NCBI GenBank assembly: GCA_016867715.1
Contig: VGIW01000019.1
Location: forward strand, 1-46,375
Length of the DNA stretch: 46,375 nt
Reading direction: 5' to 3'
DNA from: Candidatus Eisenbacteria bacterium
Lineage (GTDB): Bacteria > Orphanbacterota > Orphanbacteria > Orphanbacterales > Orphanbacteraceae
Shown: one piece after another, positions 24,315 through 46,375 of the stretch
How the letters are laid out: each line of letters opens with the position of its first letter
How positions within the stretch are numbered: the stretch's first letter is position 1
Made by a program: the position numbers and the translations under genes
The notes under the pieces: generated by a model
Database searches by the model: none
What the model saw: only the letters and a program-made list of their open reading frames with translations
What the model was told of the DNA's origin: nothing

Positions 24315-25313
24315 ATGATGCCGTCCGCGACCGAGGGAGAAACGAGGATGGAAGGTCCCGACCGCGCGATGGGAGAAGAGGTGGATGTCTCGGTCGTCGT
24401 TCCGCTCTTCAACGAGGCGGCCTCCCTTCGGGAGCTGAAGGCGAGAATCTCCGAGGTGCTCGACCGACACGCGTACTCGGGCGAGATCCTCTTCGTCGAC
24501 GACGGTTCGCGCGACGGATCCTTCGGCGTCATCGAGGAGATGGCGGCGGCGGACGAGCGCGTGCGGGCGCTCCGCTTCCGGAACAACTTCGGCAAGGCGG
24601 CGGCACTTTCCGCCGGCTTCCGCGAGGTGCGCGGACGAATCGTGGTGACGATGGACGCCGACCTCCAAGACGACCCGGCGGAGATCCCCCGGCTTCTCGC
24701 AAAGATCGACGAGGGGTTCGACGTCGTCTCCGGGTGGAAGAAGAAGCGGCGGGACCCGTGGAGCAAGACCGTTCCCTCGTGGTTCTTCAACAAGGTAACT
24801 GCCTTGGTTACAGGCATTCCGATCCATGACTTCAACTGCGGCCTGAAGGCGTATCGAGGCGAGGCGGTCCGCGAGATCGAGGTGTACGGCGAGCTGCACC
24901 GCTACATTCCGGCCCTCGCCGCCTGGAAGGGTTTCCGCATCGGCGAAATCGAGGTCACGCACCATCCGAGGAAGCACGGGCGCTCGAAGTACGGGCCGCG
25001 GCGATTCCTCTCGGGTTTTCTCGATCTCCTCACCGTGATGCTCCTCACGAAGTTCACGCCGAAGCCGCTCCACCTCTTCGGGTTCGTGGGGGCCGCGCTC
25101 GGGCTCGTCGGCTTCTTGATCTCGCTCTATCTCGTGACGCTGAAGCTTCGCTTCGGGAACATCCAGGGCCGCGTTCCTCTTCTTTCCCTCGGCGTGCTCC
25201 TCGTCATCATGGGGATGCAATTCCTCTCGACCGGGCTTCTCGCGGAGATGATCGCGAGCCATCGGGCCTCGCAAGCGCGGGACTACTCGGTGGAAAGGAA
25301 GATCCGGCTTTGA
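24315..25313 (+). CDS. GT2-family polyprenyl-phosphate glycosyltransferase (GtrB/ArnC-like)
   Basis: A 332-residue protein with a GT-A domain (VVVPLFNEA, VDDGSRDGS, MDADLQDD with DAD at 114-116) followed by two C-terminal membrane helices (about 250-275 and 285-305), the hallmark of GtrB/ArnC-type synthases. The HPRKHGRSKYG loop near residue 218 is typical. Product: a polyprenyl-P-sugar for export. GAGGAAGG lies about five bases before ATG 24315; ATGs at 24318, 24348 and 24369 are alternatives that would trim up to 18 residues. It overlaps the next gene by four bases. Confidence 0.92.
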   Translation: MMPSATEGETRMEGPDRAMGEEVDVSVVVPLFNEAASLRELKARISEVLDRHAYSGEILFVDDGSRDGSFGVIEEMAAADERVRALRFRNNFGKAAALSAGFREVRGRIVVTMDADLQDDPAEIPRLLAKIDEGFDVVSGWKKKRRDPWSKTVPSWFFNKVTALVTGIPIHDFNCGLKAYRGEAVREIEVYGELHRYIPALAAWKGFRIGEIEVTHHPRKHGRSKYGPRRFLSGFLDLLTVMLLTKFTPKPLHLFGFVGAALGLVGFLISLYLVTLKLRFGNIQGRVPLLSLGVLLVIMGMQFLSTGLLAEMIASHRASQARDYSVERKIRL

Positions 25314-40998: not shown

Positions 40999-42693
40999 AT
41001 GGACGACTCCCGGCAATCCTTCGATCCGCGGGCCTTTCAGGGGACGCTCGCGAAGAGGAAGTGGCACCTTCTCGTGCCGCTCGTTCTCGCGACCGCGACC
41101 TCGTTCGTCGTGGTCGAGCGGATGCCGGAGATCTACGCCATCGAGTCGGTTCTTCTCTTCGAGACGGCCGCCCCGCTCACCGGCGAGGTGGAGCGCCATC
41201 TCCTTCCGGGCACGAGCCCGTCCCGCGGACGCGAGGAGGACCGGAGGATCGAGGCGAACCTTCTGCGGATCAAGGTCAGCTCTCCCGATTTCCTCGGCGA
41301 GCTGGCGGAAGAGATGGGTTTCCTGAACGATCCGGCCGGTCTCGAGCGAGCCGCCCTGAAGAAGGCGGATAGCGGGGACCCGAAATCGCCCGAGGAGATC
41401 TTCCGCCAGGATGTCACCACGTGGCTGGCGAGCATGATCGAGGTCAACCTGGCGGGATCGAACATCTATCAGATCACGATGAAGGGGAACGATCGCGATC
41501 TCCTCTTCCGCATGTCGAACCTGATCAACACGAAGCTCCTCGAGATGGTGCAGAACGAACAGCTCGGCCGCCTGCGTGCGGCAAGCGTCTTCACCGACGA
41601 GCAGATCACGATCTACAAGGCGAAGCTCGACGAAGCGAGGCGGGATCTCGACCGTTTTCTCGCCTCTCAGCCGCTCTCGAGAAGCGAGCCGACCTTCTCG
41701 CGAATCGACGCCGCGGCGGTGGTCCGGCTCGTGGACGAGACCGGCTACGAGATCCTCCGCATCACCGAGCGCGAGCAGGAGTCGAGCGCGATGTTGACCC
41801 AAATGTACGGGTTCAACATCGATGCGTTCTTGGACGGCGCGATGCCTTCGGTCTCGCTCCTCGCGGAGAAGCTGGTGTCGCTCGAGAAGCAGCTCGGCTT
41901 CCTCCTCCTCGAACGGTCCTGGAACGATCCGACCGTGATCGCGCACAACACGAGGATCGGGGAGGCGCGCGCCGAGATCGAGGACGCCGGGCGTCGCCTC
42001 GCGCGCTCTCTTCTTCTGAACCAACCCTCGCGCGTGCAAGAACTGGCCGGGGATGTCCTCCGCGACCGCATCCTTCTGGACGCCCTTGCGTCGCGGAGGG
42101 GGGCGCTCGAGCAGCAAACCGTCGTGCCGTCCGTTCAGGGCCCCAGCCCCGCGGTCTTGAGTCGCCGGGCGCAGGAGCTCTCATTCCTCGAGGAGCAGGT
42201 CCGCATCAACGAGGGGATCTACAACTCCTTCCTTCGCCAAGCTACCTCCGCGAAGATCTCCGAAGCGGTCGAGACCGAGCAGCTCATGCGCAGCGTGCGG
42301 GTGATCCGCGCTCCCCAATGGCCCGCGAAGCCGGCCAGCCCGAACCGCCCGCAGGTGATCGGCCTCGGGATCTTGATCGGCCTTGCGCTCGGGGCGGCGG
42401 GGATGATGTTCGGCGAGTACTTCGATACCTCCGTGAAGGATGTCCGCCAGGCGGAGGAGATCGTCGGCGTGCCGATTCTCGGGACCATTCCGCTCATCGA
42501 ATACCGCTTCCAACCCAGGACGCGCGGGGGCTTCTGGAGAAGAGGAACGGTGGCGCGGTGGGCAGGGGGGATCCTCGTCGCGATTCTCGTCGGCTTTCTC
42601 TTCTACCGAAGTCGGGCGGGTGTGGCCGAAGAGAGCGCGGAACCGGAGAACGAGGCGGGCGGGGGGATCGTGAACGAGGAGGTTGCGCGATGA
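40999..42693 (+). CDS. Wzz/GumC-like chain-length determinant (polysaccharide co-polymerase)
   Basis: 564 residues. Helix 1 is at about 22-40, then a long coiled-coil periplasmic region (about 50-440), helix 2 (PQVIGLGILIGLALGAAG) and the GVPILGTIPLI cytoplasmic segment. A third hydrophobic helix (GGILVAILVGFLFY) follows, putting the acidic tail on the periplasmic side. This extra helix is known in exosortase-linked chain-length proteins and is absent from standard Wzz. There is no fused kinase; it is the separate next gene. ATG 40999 has AAAGGA five bases upstream; GTG 40981 is a weaker alternative and would start directly at the export gene stop. Confidence 0.9.
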   Translation: MDDSRQSFDPRAFQGTLAKRKWHLLVPLVLATATSFVVVERMPEIYAIESVLLFETAAPLTGEVERHLLPGTSPSRGREEDRRIEANLLRIKVSSPDFLGELAEEMGFLNDPAGLERAALKKADSGDPKSPEEIFRQDVTTWLASMIEVNLAGSNIYQITMKGNDRDLLFRMSNLINTKLLEMVQNEQLGRLRAASVFTDEQITIYKAKLDEARRDLDRFLASQPLSRSEPTFSRIDAAAVVRLVDETGYEILRITEREQESSAMLTQMYGFNIDAFLDGAMPSVSLLAEKLVSLEKQLGFLLLERSWNDPTVIAHNTRIGEARAEIEDAGRRLARSLLLNQPSRVQELAGDVLRDRILLDALASRRGALEQQTVVPSVQGPSPAVLSRRAQELSFLEEQVRINEGIYNSFLRQATSAKISEAVETEQLMRSVRVIRAPQWPAKPASPNRPQVIGLGILIGLALGAAGMMFGEYFDTSVKDVRQAEEIVGVPILGTIPLIEYRFQPRTRGGFWRRGTVARWAGGILVAILVGFLFYRSRAGVAEESAEPENEAGGGIVNEEVAR

Positions 42694-43382
42694 ACGGGAA
42701 CGGCGTGCCGATCCTCGACCGGTACGATCCCGAGGCGCCGAGCGCGATCGAGTTTCGCAGACTTTATTCACGCCTCAAGTATAGGATGGGGGAGAAGCCG
42801 GTTTTTCCCCTGATGATGACGAGCTCGAAGCACGAAGAGGGGAAGACGACGACCGCGGCTTTCCTCGCGCTCACGATCGCGCGAAGCGAGGAAGGGCGTG
42901 TGCTTCTCGTCGACATGGATCTTCATCGCCCGCGCATCCACCGCCTCTACGGTCTCCCGATGCAAGGAGGCGTCAGCGAGTTCCTCCAGGGGGCGGAGCC
43001 GTTCGATCGGCTTCCGAAGAGCACGCCCCTCCCCAACCTGGACATCCTGACGAGCGGGCGAATGGTGCGTTCCCCATCCGCTCTCTTCGATCCTCCGCTT
43101 CTCCGCGGCTTCCTCGAGGAGCTGTCGAGGCGTTATCCGGTCGTGATCATCGACTCTCCGCCTCTCCTTCCCGTGAGCGACACGATGGTCCTCAGCACGC
43201 TCGTCGCGTCGATACTCTTGGTGGTGATGGCGGGGAAGACGCCGCGGGAAGTGGTCGCGCGGGGGACGGAGATCCTGAGGGACGTGAACGCCCCTCTCGC
43301 GGGCGTCGTTATCAACAACTCGAGGGGTGTCCTGCCATACTACTACAACTACAAGTACTACGGCTATCGCCGGAAGGAATAG
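42690..43382 (+). CDS. CpsD/CapB-like tyrosine autokinase (BY-kinase)
   Basis: 230 residues. Motifs are Walker A SSKHEEGKT (45-53), Walker A' LLVDMD (73-78), Walker B VVIIDSPP (about 148-155), and a C-terminal tyrosine-rich cluster (YYYNYKYYGY, last 16 residues) that is the autophosphorylation site. It works with the Wzz-like protein encoded directly before it to control polymer length and export. The split Wzz + kinase layout is typical of CapA/CapB-like and exosortase-linked systems. ATG 42690 shares a base with the previous stop. Confidence 0.94.
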   Translation: MNGNGVPILDRYDPEAPSAIEFRRLYSRLKYRMGEKPVFPLMMTSSKHEEGKTTTAAFLALTIARSEEGRVLLVDMDLHRPRIHRLYGLPMQGGVSEFLQGAEPFDRLPKSTPLPNLDILTSGRMVRSPSALFDPPLLRGFLEELSRRYPVVIIDSPPLLPVSDTMVLSTLVASILLVVMAGKTPREVVARGTEILRDVNAPLAGVVINNSRGVLPYYYNYKYYGYRRKE

Positions 43383-43437: not shown

Positions 43438-44403
43438 GTGCCGACCGTCCCTGTAGCCGCCCGTCCCGTCGACCTCTCGATTCTCGTTCCGGTCTACAAC
43501 GAGAAGGAGAACGTCGGCGCTCTCCACGCGGAGACCGTTCCGGTTCTCGATCGGCTCGGGCTCACATGGGAGATGGTCTTCGTGGACGACGGATCGATCG
43601 ACGGGACGCACGAGGCGCTCGCGGCGATCCGGCGCGAGGACGCGAGGGTGCGCGTCGTCCGACTTCGCAGGAACTTCGGGCAGACAACGGCGCTCGCCGC
43701 GGGCTTCGATTACGCGAGGGGGGATCGGGTCGTCACCCTCGACGGGGATCTCCAGAATGACCCGCGCGACATCCCGCTTCTTCTCGAGAAGATGAACGAG
43801 GGATACGAGGTCGTGAGCGGCTGGCGGCGCGATCGGAAGGAGCCGTTCCTGACGCGCCGATTCCCTTCCGCCGCCGCCAACCGACTGATCGCCTATCTTT
43901 CGGGAGTGCCGATCCACGATTTCGGATGCACGCTGAAGGCATACGACCGGAGCGTGTTCGAACGGCTTCCGCTCTACGCCGAGACGCATCGTTTCCTCCC
44001 CGCGCTCGCCTCTCTCTCCGGGGCGCGCATGACGGAGACGGTCGTGCGCCACCATCCGCGCCGTTCCGGGCGTTCGAAGTACGGGCTCTCCCGCGTCGGC
44101 AAGGTGCTCGTCGATCTCCTCGCGCTCCAGATGATCCTGCACTTCTCGACGCGCCCGCGCCGCTGGTTCGGCGCTCTCGCCCTCCCGTTCGCGGTCTCAG
44201 GCACCGTATGCGGCGCATGGGCGGCGGCGGCCTATCTTGCTGAACCGGAAGGCCCGCCGGCGATCGTGCTGCCGGGCGCGACGTTTCTCCTCTTCTTCCT
44301 GTCGTTCTTCCTTCTCTCGCTCGGGTGGTTCGCGGAGCTCGTCACGGCGACCGGCATCCGCGAGAAGAGGCTCGCGCGCGTTCTCGGAGGGCCCGGACGA
44401 TGA
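43438..44403 (+). CDS. GT2-family polyprenyl-phosphate glycosyltransferase (intact)
   Basis: 321 residues. ILVPVYNEKENV, VDDGSIDGT (49-57), LDGDLQND (DGD at 102-104), HDFGCTLKAY and HHPRRSGRSKYG are all kept, followed by two C-terminal helices with the FAELVT motif. It is a GtrB/ArnC/DPM-type synthase. GTG 43438 has AGAGGAG six bases upstream; the 55-base gap after the kinase has no terminator. The next gene is a shortened and altered copy of this one, so the pair probably arose by duplication and could form a heterodimer. Confidence 0.92.
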   Translation: MPTVPVAARPVDLSILVPVYNEKENVGALHAETVPVLDRLGLTWEMVFVDDGSIDGTHEALAAIRREDARVRVVRLRRNFGQTTALAAGFDYARGDRVVTLDGDLQNDPRDIPLLLEKMNEGYEVVSGWRRDRKEPFLTRRFPSAAANRLIAYLSGVPIHDFGCTLKAYDRSVFERLPLYAETHRFLPALASLSGARMTETVVRHHPRRSGRSKYGLSRVGKVLVDLLALQMILHFSTRPRRWFGALALPFAVSGTVCGAWAAAAYLAEPEGPPAIVLPGATFLLFFLSFFLLSLGWFAELVTATGIREKRLARVLGGPGR

Positions 44404-45359
44404 ACGAATCGGCGATTCCCGCGGCGCGCGCCGGCTGTTCGGTTCTCGTGTACCTTCCGTACGCGACCGCCCGCCTCGGGGAGATCCTCTCGTCGATCCA
44501 CGAGGGAATGCGCGGCGAGGAGTACGAGGTACTTCTCCTCGACGACGGGACGGGGCGAGGCGCGGAGTGGAAGGAGACGTTCGGCGAGGGGCCGGCTCCC
44601 GTTCGCGTCGTGCGGCTCGCGCGGCGCTTCGGCGAAGCGGTCGCCCTCGACGCGGCGCTTCCGCACGCGCGCGGCGCAACGCTTCTCACGATCCCTGCCG
44701 GAACACCGGTCACCGCGGAGGAGATCCTCTCGCTCCTTGCCGAGATCCGGCGGGGATCCGACCTCGTGGTCGGCTGCCGTTCCGGACAGACCGGTTCCTT
44801 TTTCGAGCGCATCCCGCTTTCGATTTACCGGGGCATGGCGCGCCGCGCGACCGGAATCGCGTTTCGCGATTTCGCGAGCGGCGTGCGCGCCTTCCGACGC
44901 GAGGTGGCGGAAGAGATCGCCCTCTACGGCGAGATGGTCCGGTTCCTTCCGATCTTGGCGGCGGGGCGCGGGTATCGGGTCGCGCAGATCGGCATTGCCG
45001 GAAAGTGGCCGCGCCCGGCAGGCGGCGCGCGCGCCCGCTTCCAGCCGATGACCTATGTCCACCGCATGCTCGATGTCCTGACGCTCTATTTTCTGCTGCG
45101 CTTCACAAAGAAGCCGCTCCGGTTCTTCGGGCTTCTCGGCATGCTTCTCCTCCTCCCCGGGGTGTTGATCATTCTCTATCTCTTCCTCGTCCGCATCCTC
45201 CTCCACCAAGGGATCGCCGGCCGCCCGCTTCTCCTCCTCGGCATCCTGCTCATGGTCCTCGGCGTGCAGACGATCTCGATCGGCCTGATCGGTGAGATGA
45301 TCATCTTTACGCACTCGCGCGAGACCCGGGACTACAGCGTTCTCGAGGTCCTCGAATGA
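44400..45359 (+). CDS. Degenerate GT2-family protein, probable pseudo-glycosyltransferase
   Basis: 319 residues with the same layout as the gene before it: a GT-A-like domain and two C-terminal helices (FFGLLGMLLLLPGV and the LIGEM end). The LLDDGTGRG donor loop is partly kept, but the catalytic D-x-D segment (residues 98-102) reads IPAGT, and the HHPRRSGRSKY loop is replaced by KWPRPAGGARA. It is therefore unlikely to transfer sugar. The reading frame is intact and overlaps its neighbours by four bases, so it is probably not a decaying gene. Possible roles are a binding partner or allosteric subunit of the intact GT2. Confidence 0.8.
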   Translation: MNESAIPAARAGCSVLVYLPYATARLGEILSSIHEGMRGEEYEVLLLDDGTGRGAEWKETFGEGPAPVRVVRLARRFGEAVALDAALPHARGATLLTIPAGTPVTAEEILSLLAEIRRGSDLVVGCRSGQTGSFFERIPLSIYRGMARRATGIAFRDFASGVRAFRREVAEEIALYGEMVRFLPILAAGRGYRVAQIGIAGKWPRPAGGARARFQPMTYVHRMLDVLTLYFLLRFTKKPLRFFGLLGMLLLLPGVLIILYLFLVRILLHQGIAGRPLLLLGILLMVLGVQTISIGLIGEMIIFTHSRETRDYSVLEVLE

Positions 45360-46375
45360 TGAAGGTCCGCCTTCTCGAGCACGGCGAGGAGGAGGCATGG
45401 AACCGTTTCGTCGACGAGCGCCGGGAGAGCCTGCTCGGTCATCGTGCGGAGTGGCGGGAGATCCTCGCGGAGAGCCTTGGCCACGAGCCGCGCCATCTCG
45501 TCGCCGAGGAATCGGGCGCGATCCGCGGGGTTCTCCCGCTCGTCCGGGTCGCGGGGATCGTAGGCGGAAGGGCTCTCGTGTCGCTCCCGTGGCTCGACGC
45601 GGCCGGCCCTCTCGCGGCCGACGAGCAGGCGAGGGATGCGCTCGTTCGCCGAGCGGTCGAGATGGGACGCGAGACACGCTGTTCCTACGTCGAGATTCGA
45701 TCGTTGAAGGAACTTCCGGAACCCCGGCCGGTTCGCGGGTCGAAGGCGGTCCTCATCCTCCCGCTCGACGAACCGGAGAGTATGTGGAAGGCGTTCGACG
45801 CGAAGGTGCGGAACCAGATTCGCAAGGCGGAGAGAGAAGGACTCGTGGGGGAGATCGCGGGGGAAGAGGGGATCGGCCCTTTCTACCGGGTCTTCTCGCG
45901 AAACATGCGGGATCTCGGTGTTCCTGTCTGGGGGGAGCGCTTCTTCCTGAGCATCCTTCGGCGCTTCGAGGGGCGTGCGCGGGTCGTCCTCGTTCGGCGG
46001 GACGGCCGAGCCGTGGGCGGAGCCCTTCTTCTCCGGCACGGGGAGACCGCCGTCGTCCCGAGCGCCTCCTCGCTTCGGAGCTACTTCTCCCTTTGCCCGA
46101 ACCACCTTCTCTACTGGACGGCGCTTCGCGAAGCGCGGGCTCTCGGCGCGACCGTCTTCGATTTCGGCCGATCGACGCCGGGGAGCGGGACGTTTCGGTT
46201 CAAGGCTCAGTGGGGGGCCGAGCCGAGAACGTGTTTCTGGCACTACGCCCTTCTTCGGATCCGCGAGGTGCCGGAGAAGAACACCGATAGCCCGCGCCTC
46301 CGGTGGGCGGTCGCGGCGTGGAAGAGGCTTCCCGTCCCGATCGCGAACCGGATCGGGCCGATGATCGTGCGGAGG
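45356..46375 (+). CDS. FemAB-family acyltransferase (XrtA/PEP-CTERM-associated type), 3' end missing
   Basis: 340 codons are read without a stop to the window edge. Translation from ATG 45356 (overlapping the GT2-like stop) gives two GNAT-like halves. The features are SLPWLDAAGPL, VRNQIRKAEREGL (about residue 152), DLGVPVWGERFF, and FDFGRSTPGSGTFRFKAQWG near residue 270, with the GPFYRVFSRNM segment between. This is the arrangement of the FemAB-like proteins found in exosortase (XrtA) exopolysaccharide loci. They probably transfer an aminoacyl or acyl group to sugar or peptide; the true substrate is unknown. The full family length is about 340-350, so only a few residues are missing. Confidence 0.82.
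   Translation, partial: MMKVRLLEHGEEEAWNRFVDERRESLLGHRAEWREILAESLGHEPRHLVAEESGAIRGVLPLVRVAGIVGGRALVSLPWLDAAGPLAADEQARDALVRRAVEMGRETRCSYVEIRSLKELPEPRPVRGSKAVLILPLDEPESMWKAFDAKVRNQIRKAEREGLVGEIAGEEGIGPFYRVFSRNMRDLGVPVWGERFFLSILRRFEGRARVVLVRRDGRAVGGALLLRHGETAVVPSASSLRSYFSLCPNHLLYWTALREARALGATVFDFGRSTPGSGTFRFKAQWGAEPRTCFWHYALLRIREVPEKNTDSPRLRWAVAAWKRLPVPIANRIGPMIVRR

Follow-up and report, generated by a model that had tools for sequence, protein, structure and literature searches.

A conserved pseudo-glycosyltransferase encoded beside an intact polyprenyl-phosphate glycosyltransferase-like protein: a candidate non-catalytic subunit

Background

Why should a bacterial genome keep, directly behind an intact glycosyltransferase gene and overlapping it by four bases, a second gene for a protein of the same fold that lacks the metal-binding motif? 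The question is raised by two genes near the end of the window, by which we mean the whole stretch of DNA analysed (46,375 nucleotides of contig VGIW01000019.1, assembly GCA_016867715.1, Candidatus Eisenbacteria bacterium); the window features discussed here all lie on its forward strand. Gene A (43438..44403) encodes an intact GT2 protein of 321 aa that resembles polyprenyl-phosphate glycosyltransferases of the GtrB/ArnC type and is the putative catalytic partner; gene B (44400..45359) encodes a pseudo-GT2 of 319 aa with an A-like fold. Both match Pfam Glycos_transf_2 (PF00535), A at 6.4e-30 and B at 1.6e-10. The sequence ATGA at 44400-44403 holds the TGA of A and the ATG of B, and at 45356-45359 the TGA of B overlaps the ATG of the next gene by four bases in the same way. 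A first-pass annotation of these genes had described B as lacking the D-x-D and the HHPRRSGRSKY loop of its intact paralogue while keeping its frame, membrane helices and four-base overlaps, and had proposed that it is retained as a non-catalytic partner, for example in a heterodimer.

The natural reference point is GtrB (Synechocystis sll0501), a polyisoprenyl-phosphate glucosyltransferase with a GT-A domain, a juxtamembrane region, two TM helices and a C-terminal hairpin, all of which recall A and B. Its structural description states that the metal depends on D94 and D96 and the acceptor phosphate on R122 and R200, that activity requires R200, and that the protein is a tetramer in which the C-terminal hairpin bridges neighbouring subunits; how PI-GTs bring the phosphate of a membrane-bound lipid to an active site lying 15 A from it is there described as open (PMC4728340).

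Results

Across the metal-site columns A reads LDGDLQNDP and B reads IPAGTPVTA, so that P99-A100-G101 (44694..44702) stand where the D-x-D has been lost. A D-x-D concealed elsewhere in B was sought by profile-profile alignment and the idea rejected, since the alignment is ungapped at this point, sets P-A-G on D-G-D and leaves no Asp close by. Neither Asp of the motif occurs in any of the 42 readable B rows (from 44 rows, namely 42 loci, the G004 locus and the window), while DGD is kept in 39/39 readable A rows and GxSKY in 41/41. The substitutes differ by lineage: [TSA]xR in KSB1/Calditrichota-type copies, which carry Arg at the position of the second Asp; P[AG]x in the window's family; and PAY or PPY in Nitrospirae-type and G605 copies. 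The acceptor-phosphate loop HHPRxxGxSKY has likewise gone from residues 201-214 of B (45000..45041), where HHPRRSGRSKY in A faces GKWPRPAGGARARF in B. Read without gaps, the loop of the window copy keeps P-R and G, but its relatives do not, and GxSKY is gone from most B copies. Both motif losses reported in the first-pass annotation are thus borne out.

Other parts of the site persist. The nucleotide-site DDG is retained in B (first Asp 20/23, second Asp 23/23, Gly 20/23), as is the Arg equivalent to R122 of GtrB (23/23). All 23/23 copies also conserve an Asp close to the catalytic region; the catalytic D157 of GtrB aligns three columns off the Asp conserved in A and B, and its equivalence is uncertain. 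Equivalents of both R122 and R200 are present in 23/23 A proteins, whereas the R200 column in B holds Arg in 2/23 and Gly in 15/23. After F-G, B has an invariant Glu (23/23) where A and the intact relatives have Gln or Lys (Glu 0/56). Set against the features of a PI-GT, A has them all: GT-A domain, membrane helices, ArnC/GtrB-like fold, D-x-D, R122 and R200 equivalents, and GxSKY. B has the GT-A domain and the two membrane helices and lacks the D-x-D and R200/GxSKY; it therefore does not qualify as an active member, and it is probably without catalytic activity.

Structure models of both proteins are of good confidence (pLDDT 84.5 for A and 83.8 for B) and show two long helices after a GT-A domain; for both models the best Foldseek matches are ArnC and GtrB. 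The PDB entries of ArnC and those of the 5eke/5ekp type contain four chains each. The two predicted membrane helices of B, taken by DSSP from the model, span residues 239-268 and 275-305 (45114..45314). They lead into a C-terminal tail, GLIGEMIIFTHSRETRDYSVLEVLE (45282..45356), which occupies the place of the GtrB/ArnC C-terminal hairpin and is modelled with low confidence; it is nearly invariant in B and divergent in A. A conserved Tyr in this tail is present in 23/23 B proteins and 30/33 intact relatives but in only 6/23 A proteins. The frame, helices and overlaps of B are accordingly as first described: an open reading frame of 319 aa, ATGA at both ends and two long helices in the model.

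The description of A as the 'intact paralogue' of B holds as to intactness; close kinship does not. The window encodes one more intact GT2 of this family (24315..25313, also matching PF00535), to which B has 37% identity, against about 29% to the adjoining A. In a tree of 79 proteins, chosen by hand for spread (23 A, 23 B and 33 intact relatives), the B proteins occupy one side of a branch with SH-aLRT support of 99 and the A proteins likewise with 98; removal of the motif, loop and tail columns leaves 97 for B and 82 for A. Since A and B fall in different parts of the family tree, B did not arise as a tandem copy of A. An origin of B by recent duplication and decay of A was rejected on the same grounds, B grouping away from A and nearer the 24315-25313 copy and having a low dN/dS. 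The A and B subtrees have 13/20 splits in common, against a mean of 0.34 and a maximum of 4 when names are shuffled. Two alignments, A1 and A2, contain 41 B and 38 A proteins respectively; L037, L048 and L076 were excluded from the B set and L053, L063 and L076 from the A set, being partial or chimeric sequences or belonging to a genome divided between two contigs. One of these, L048 (39-1010), has the C-terminal half of B fused in frame to another N-terminus, which we take to be glycerophosphodiesterase-like; its contig (4,099 bases, coverage 0.7) is probably chimeric, and the locus was disregarded. As B forms one clade, has lost the D-x-D throughout and shares 13/20 splits with A, the loss is most simply read as a single ancient event, after which A and B were inherited together over a long time or transferred as a unit.

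B is encoded at all 42 loci recovered in one scan of the collection. Whole-genome searches with a B profile found it in 7/7 genomes of its own phylum (one copy split over two contigs), 72/82 of the KSB1/Calditrichota-type phylum, 2/148 sampled genomes of G141's phylum (Nitrospirae group) and 1/5 of G605's phylum; among 386 genomes over many families, matches outside the B-bearing groups keep an intact D-x-D wherever examined. The co-occurrence of A and B, a check proposed at first pass, was followed through the 82 KSB1/Calditrichota-type genomes. By score, 68 have both, 8 have neither and 6 apparently have one only (G066, G070, G109, G116, G118 and G126). Genuine lone copies were rejected, as in all six the absent gene is truncated by, or lies beyond, a contig end (inspected at L094, L108 and L148-L151). 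The two genes therefore occur together or not at all: 74 pairs, 6 of them cut by contig ends, and 8 genomes with neither. At 30 B loci inspected in this phylum, A adjoins on the same strand in 29 (two of them cut), and the remaining locus is at the edge of a contig; in G122 some 1.5 kb separates A and B, judging from coordinates alone. In G101 (L154:5263-6239) A is found in two overlapping frames beside an intact B, possibly through a sequencing frameshift.

Relaxed selection or disruption of the frame would have told against retention of B, and neither was seen: the reading frame is open across the lineages read, and dN/dS for B is 0.08-0.14 in two genome pairs. By the NG86 method, comparison of the window with its nearest relative yields 0.15 for A and, in the two parts of B that are available, 0.09 and 0.14; for G003 against G006 the values are 0.04 (A) and 0.08 (B). 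As far as these two comparisons by a simple method show, purifying selection acts on both genes, somewhat more weakly on B in G003/G006.

Where that constraint falls is a new point that goes beyond the first-pass annotation. Over 22 genomes with both genes, hand-picked for spread (L040 was omitted as near-identical to L041), A proteins are on average 59% identical to one another in the GT domain, 32% in the membrane part and 31% in the C-terminal tail; the corresponding mean pairwise identities among B proteins are 37%, 57% and 66%. A exceeds B in the GT domain in 231/231 genome pairs and in the membrane part and tail in 0/231 each; the genome pairs are interdependent, yet all point the same way, and jackknife standard errors are 0.010-0.025 on A-B differences of 0.22-0.35. 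The 33 intact, unpaired relatives lie between A and B in the GT domain (51%) and membrane part (44%) and near A in the tail (33%). Constraint on A falls on the catalytic domain, its membrane helices and tail being loose, and in B the pattern is inverted.

Flanking genes differ between lineages, so that A and B form the constant core. In the window a CpsD-like P-loop ATPase (42690..43382; PF13614/PF10609) lies just upstream of A, its context suggesting exopolysaccharide regulation, and is conserved in L076 and L081-L085. The gene after B, joined to it by the second ATGA, is FemAB/GNAT-like (45356..46375; PF13480, 1.1e-20) and runs off the contig end; it is conserved in the Eisenbacteria-type cassette (L080-L085), and in the Nitrospirae-type loci L042 and L118/L152 (27-29% identity). 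About 5.3 kb upstream of A, on the same strand, is a GtrA/DPMS-TM domain protein (PF04138; 37737-38177). KSB1-type neighbours of A and B comprise a YdjM-like protein, a third intact GT2, a GT1 and an epimerase. The YdjM-like membrane protein gene directly precedes A in many of these cassettes (L044, L054, L059, L067, L072, L075 and L078; its PF04307 match was tested in L072). The third GT2, of DPM type, follows B (e.g., L072:3786-4799) in a recurrent A-B-third GT2 order; it was considered as another dead copy and rejected, having DADNQY or DGDNQY in most copies.

Discussion

Our preferred explanation, to which we assign a probability of roughly 0.6, is that B, a pseudo-glycosyltransferase both ancient and conserved, serves as an obligate non-catalytic subunit of A in an A-B hetero-oligomer. 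It is favoured by the combination of clade-wide motif loss, co-occurrence, adjacency, purifying selection and opposite regional constraint, and the original suggestion of a non-catalytic partner is well supported by the same observations. B has, moreover, what is expected of a pseudoenzyme partner, its catalytic residues having been lost from a gene that is under purifying selection and an active homologue always accompanying it across the 82 genomes. In the proposed mechanism the D-x-D of A would serve to bind the metal and the nucleotide sugar, and A would move the sugar onto undecaprenyl phosphate at the cytoplasmic face of the membrane. B, having given up catalysis, would provide the juxtamembrane and membrane stalk together with the C-terminal tail, for which we take as a model the tail that bridges neighbouring subunits in GtrB. 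Since the homologues are tetrameric, analogy makes a heterotetramer more likely than the heterodimer first suggested; the working enzyme would most simply be an A2B2 tetramer in place of the GtrB/ArnC homotetramer. The proposed contact between A and B, its stoichiometry, the sugar specificity and the inactivity of B are inferred.

We also need to explain why B retains DDG, the R122-equivalent Arg and a conserved Asp, which a pure scaffold need not keep. These residues argue for the view that B is still an enzyme, a polyprenyl-phosphate glycosyltransferase that is metal-independent or of altered chemistry, in which the place of the metal is taken by other residues, for example the Arg of the KSB1-type TxR, and A and B act sequentially in one pathway. 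Metal-independent GT-A enzymes do exist, and the KSB1-type Arg sits at the second Asp of the D-x-D. Yet the substitute varies by lineage (TxR, P[AG]x, PPY/PAY), which is unlike a new active site; the R200-equivalent Arg, which GtrB requires for activity, has disappeared with the GxSKY loop from most copies; an invariant Glu replaces Gln or Lys after F-G in 23/23; and the GT domain is the least conserved part of B. An active B is, on balance, unlikely.

A non-catalytic B need not be bound to A. It could instead be a lipid- or nucleotide-binding factor in the pathway of A, acting in carrier handling or allosteric control without a stable complex, and the tight conservation of its membrane part and tail could reflect some other partner. 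That these are its best conserved regions, and that A and B are co-transcribed to judge by gene layout, would suit such a factor. Strict one-to-one co-occurrence and adjacency over several phyla, while the flanking genes change, would not, and the relaxation of the same regions in A fits a shared assembly; we consider a free-standing factor rather improbable. Least credible by far is that B is a decaying duplicate heading for loss. Its catalytic motifs have gone and its GT domain diverges faster than that of A, but it is open in the lineages read, has a dN/dS of about 0.1 and carries a tail that is nearly invariant across phyla, so that selection and phylogenetic depth refute decay in substance.

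The assembly that we favour, an A-B hetero-oligomer, has partial analogues among known systems. ArnC is the best match of both proteins in sequence and fold, yet it is a single active enzyme, each PDB entry containing one sequence in four copies. GtrB differs similarly, being one catalytic polypeptide in a homotetramer (PMC4728340), while B is without the equivalents of D94/D96 and R200. In yeast Mnn9-Van1 (M-Pol I), one of two homologous glycosyltransferases activates its partner in a way that does not depend on its own catalysis (PMC3787745); these are, however, GT62 Golgi enzymes and Mnn9 is itself active. VldE and ValL share with B only the word 'pseudo-glycosyltransferase', being active enzymes that form non-glycosidic bonds and are unrelated in mechanism and partner. 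In eukaryotes DPM2 and DPM3 are small membrane proteins and not, like B, dead glycosyltransferases. The dolichol-phosphate mannose synthase DPM1-DPM2-DPM3 to which they belong nevertheless resembles the proposed arrangement in dividing a catalytic subunit from separate membrane subunits (PMC4728340). We found no report of a dead-subunit (pseudo-PI-GT) partner in bacteria in the open-licence PMC literature, which is weak evidence of absence.

Conclusions

There is perhaps an even chance that a homotetramer was split once, long ago, into a catalytic subunit whose membrane part has drifted and a dead subunit that has kept its stalk and tail and lost its active site, giving an obligate heteromeric sugar-carrier enzyme in several bacterial phyla. 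If so, catalysis and membrane attachment or assembly would reside on separate homologous chains, and each could be mutated and tested alone. As B passes the PF00535 cut-off, members of its clade are probably annotated as active 'glycosyltransferase family 2' proteins, and pathway reconstructions in these uncultured phyla would therefore count one enzyme too many.
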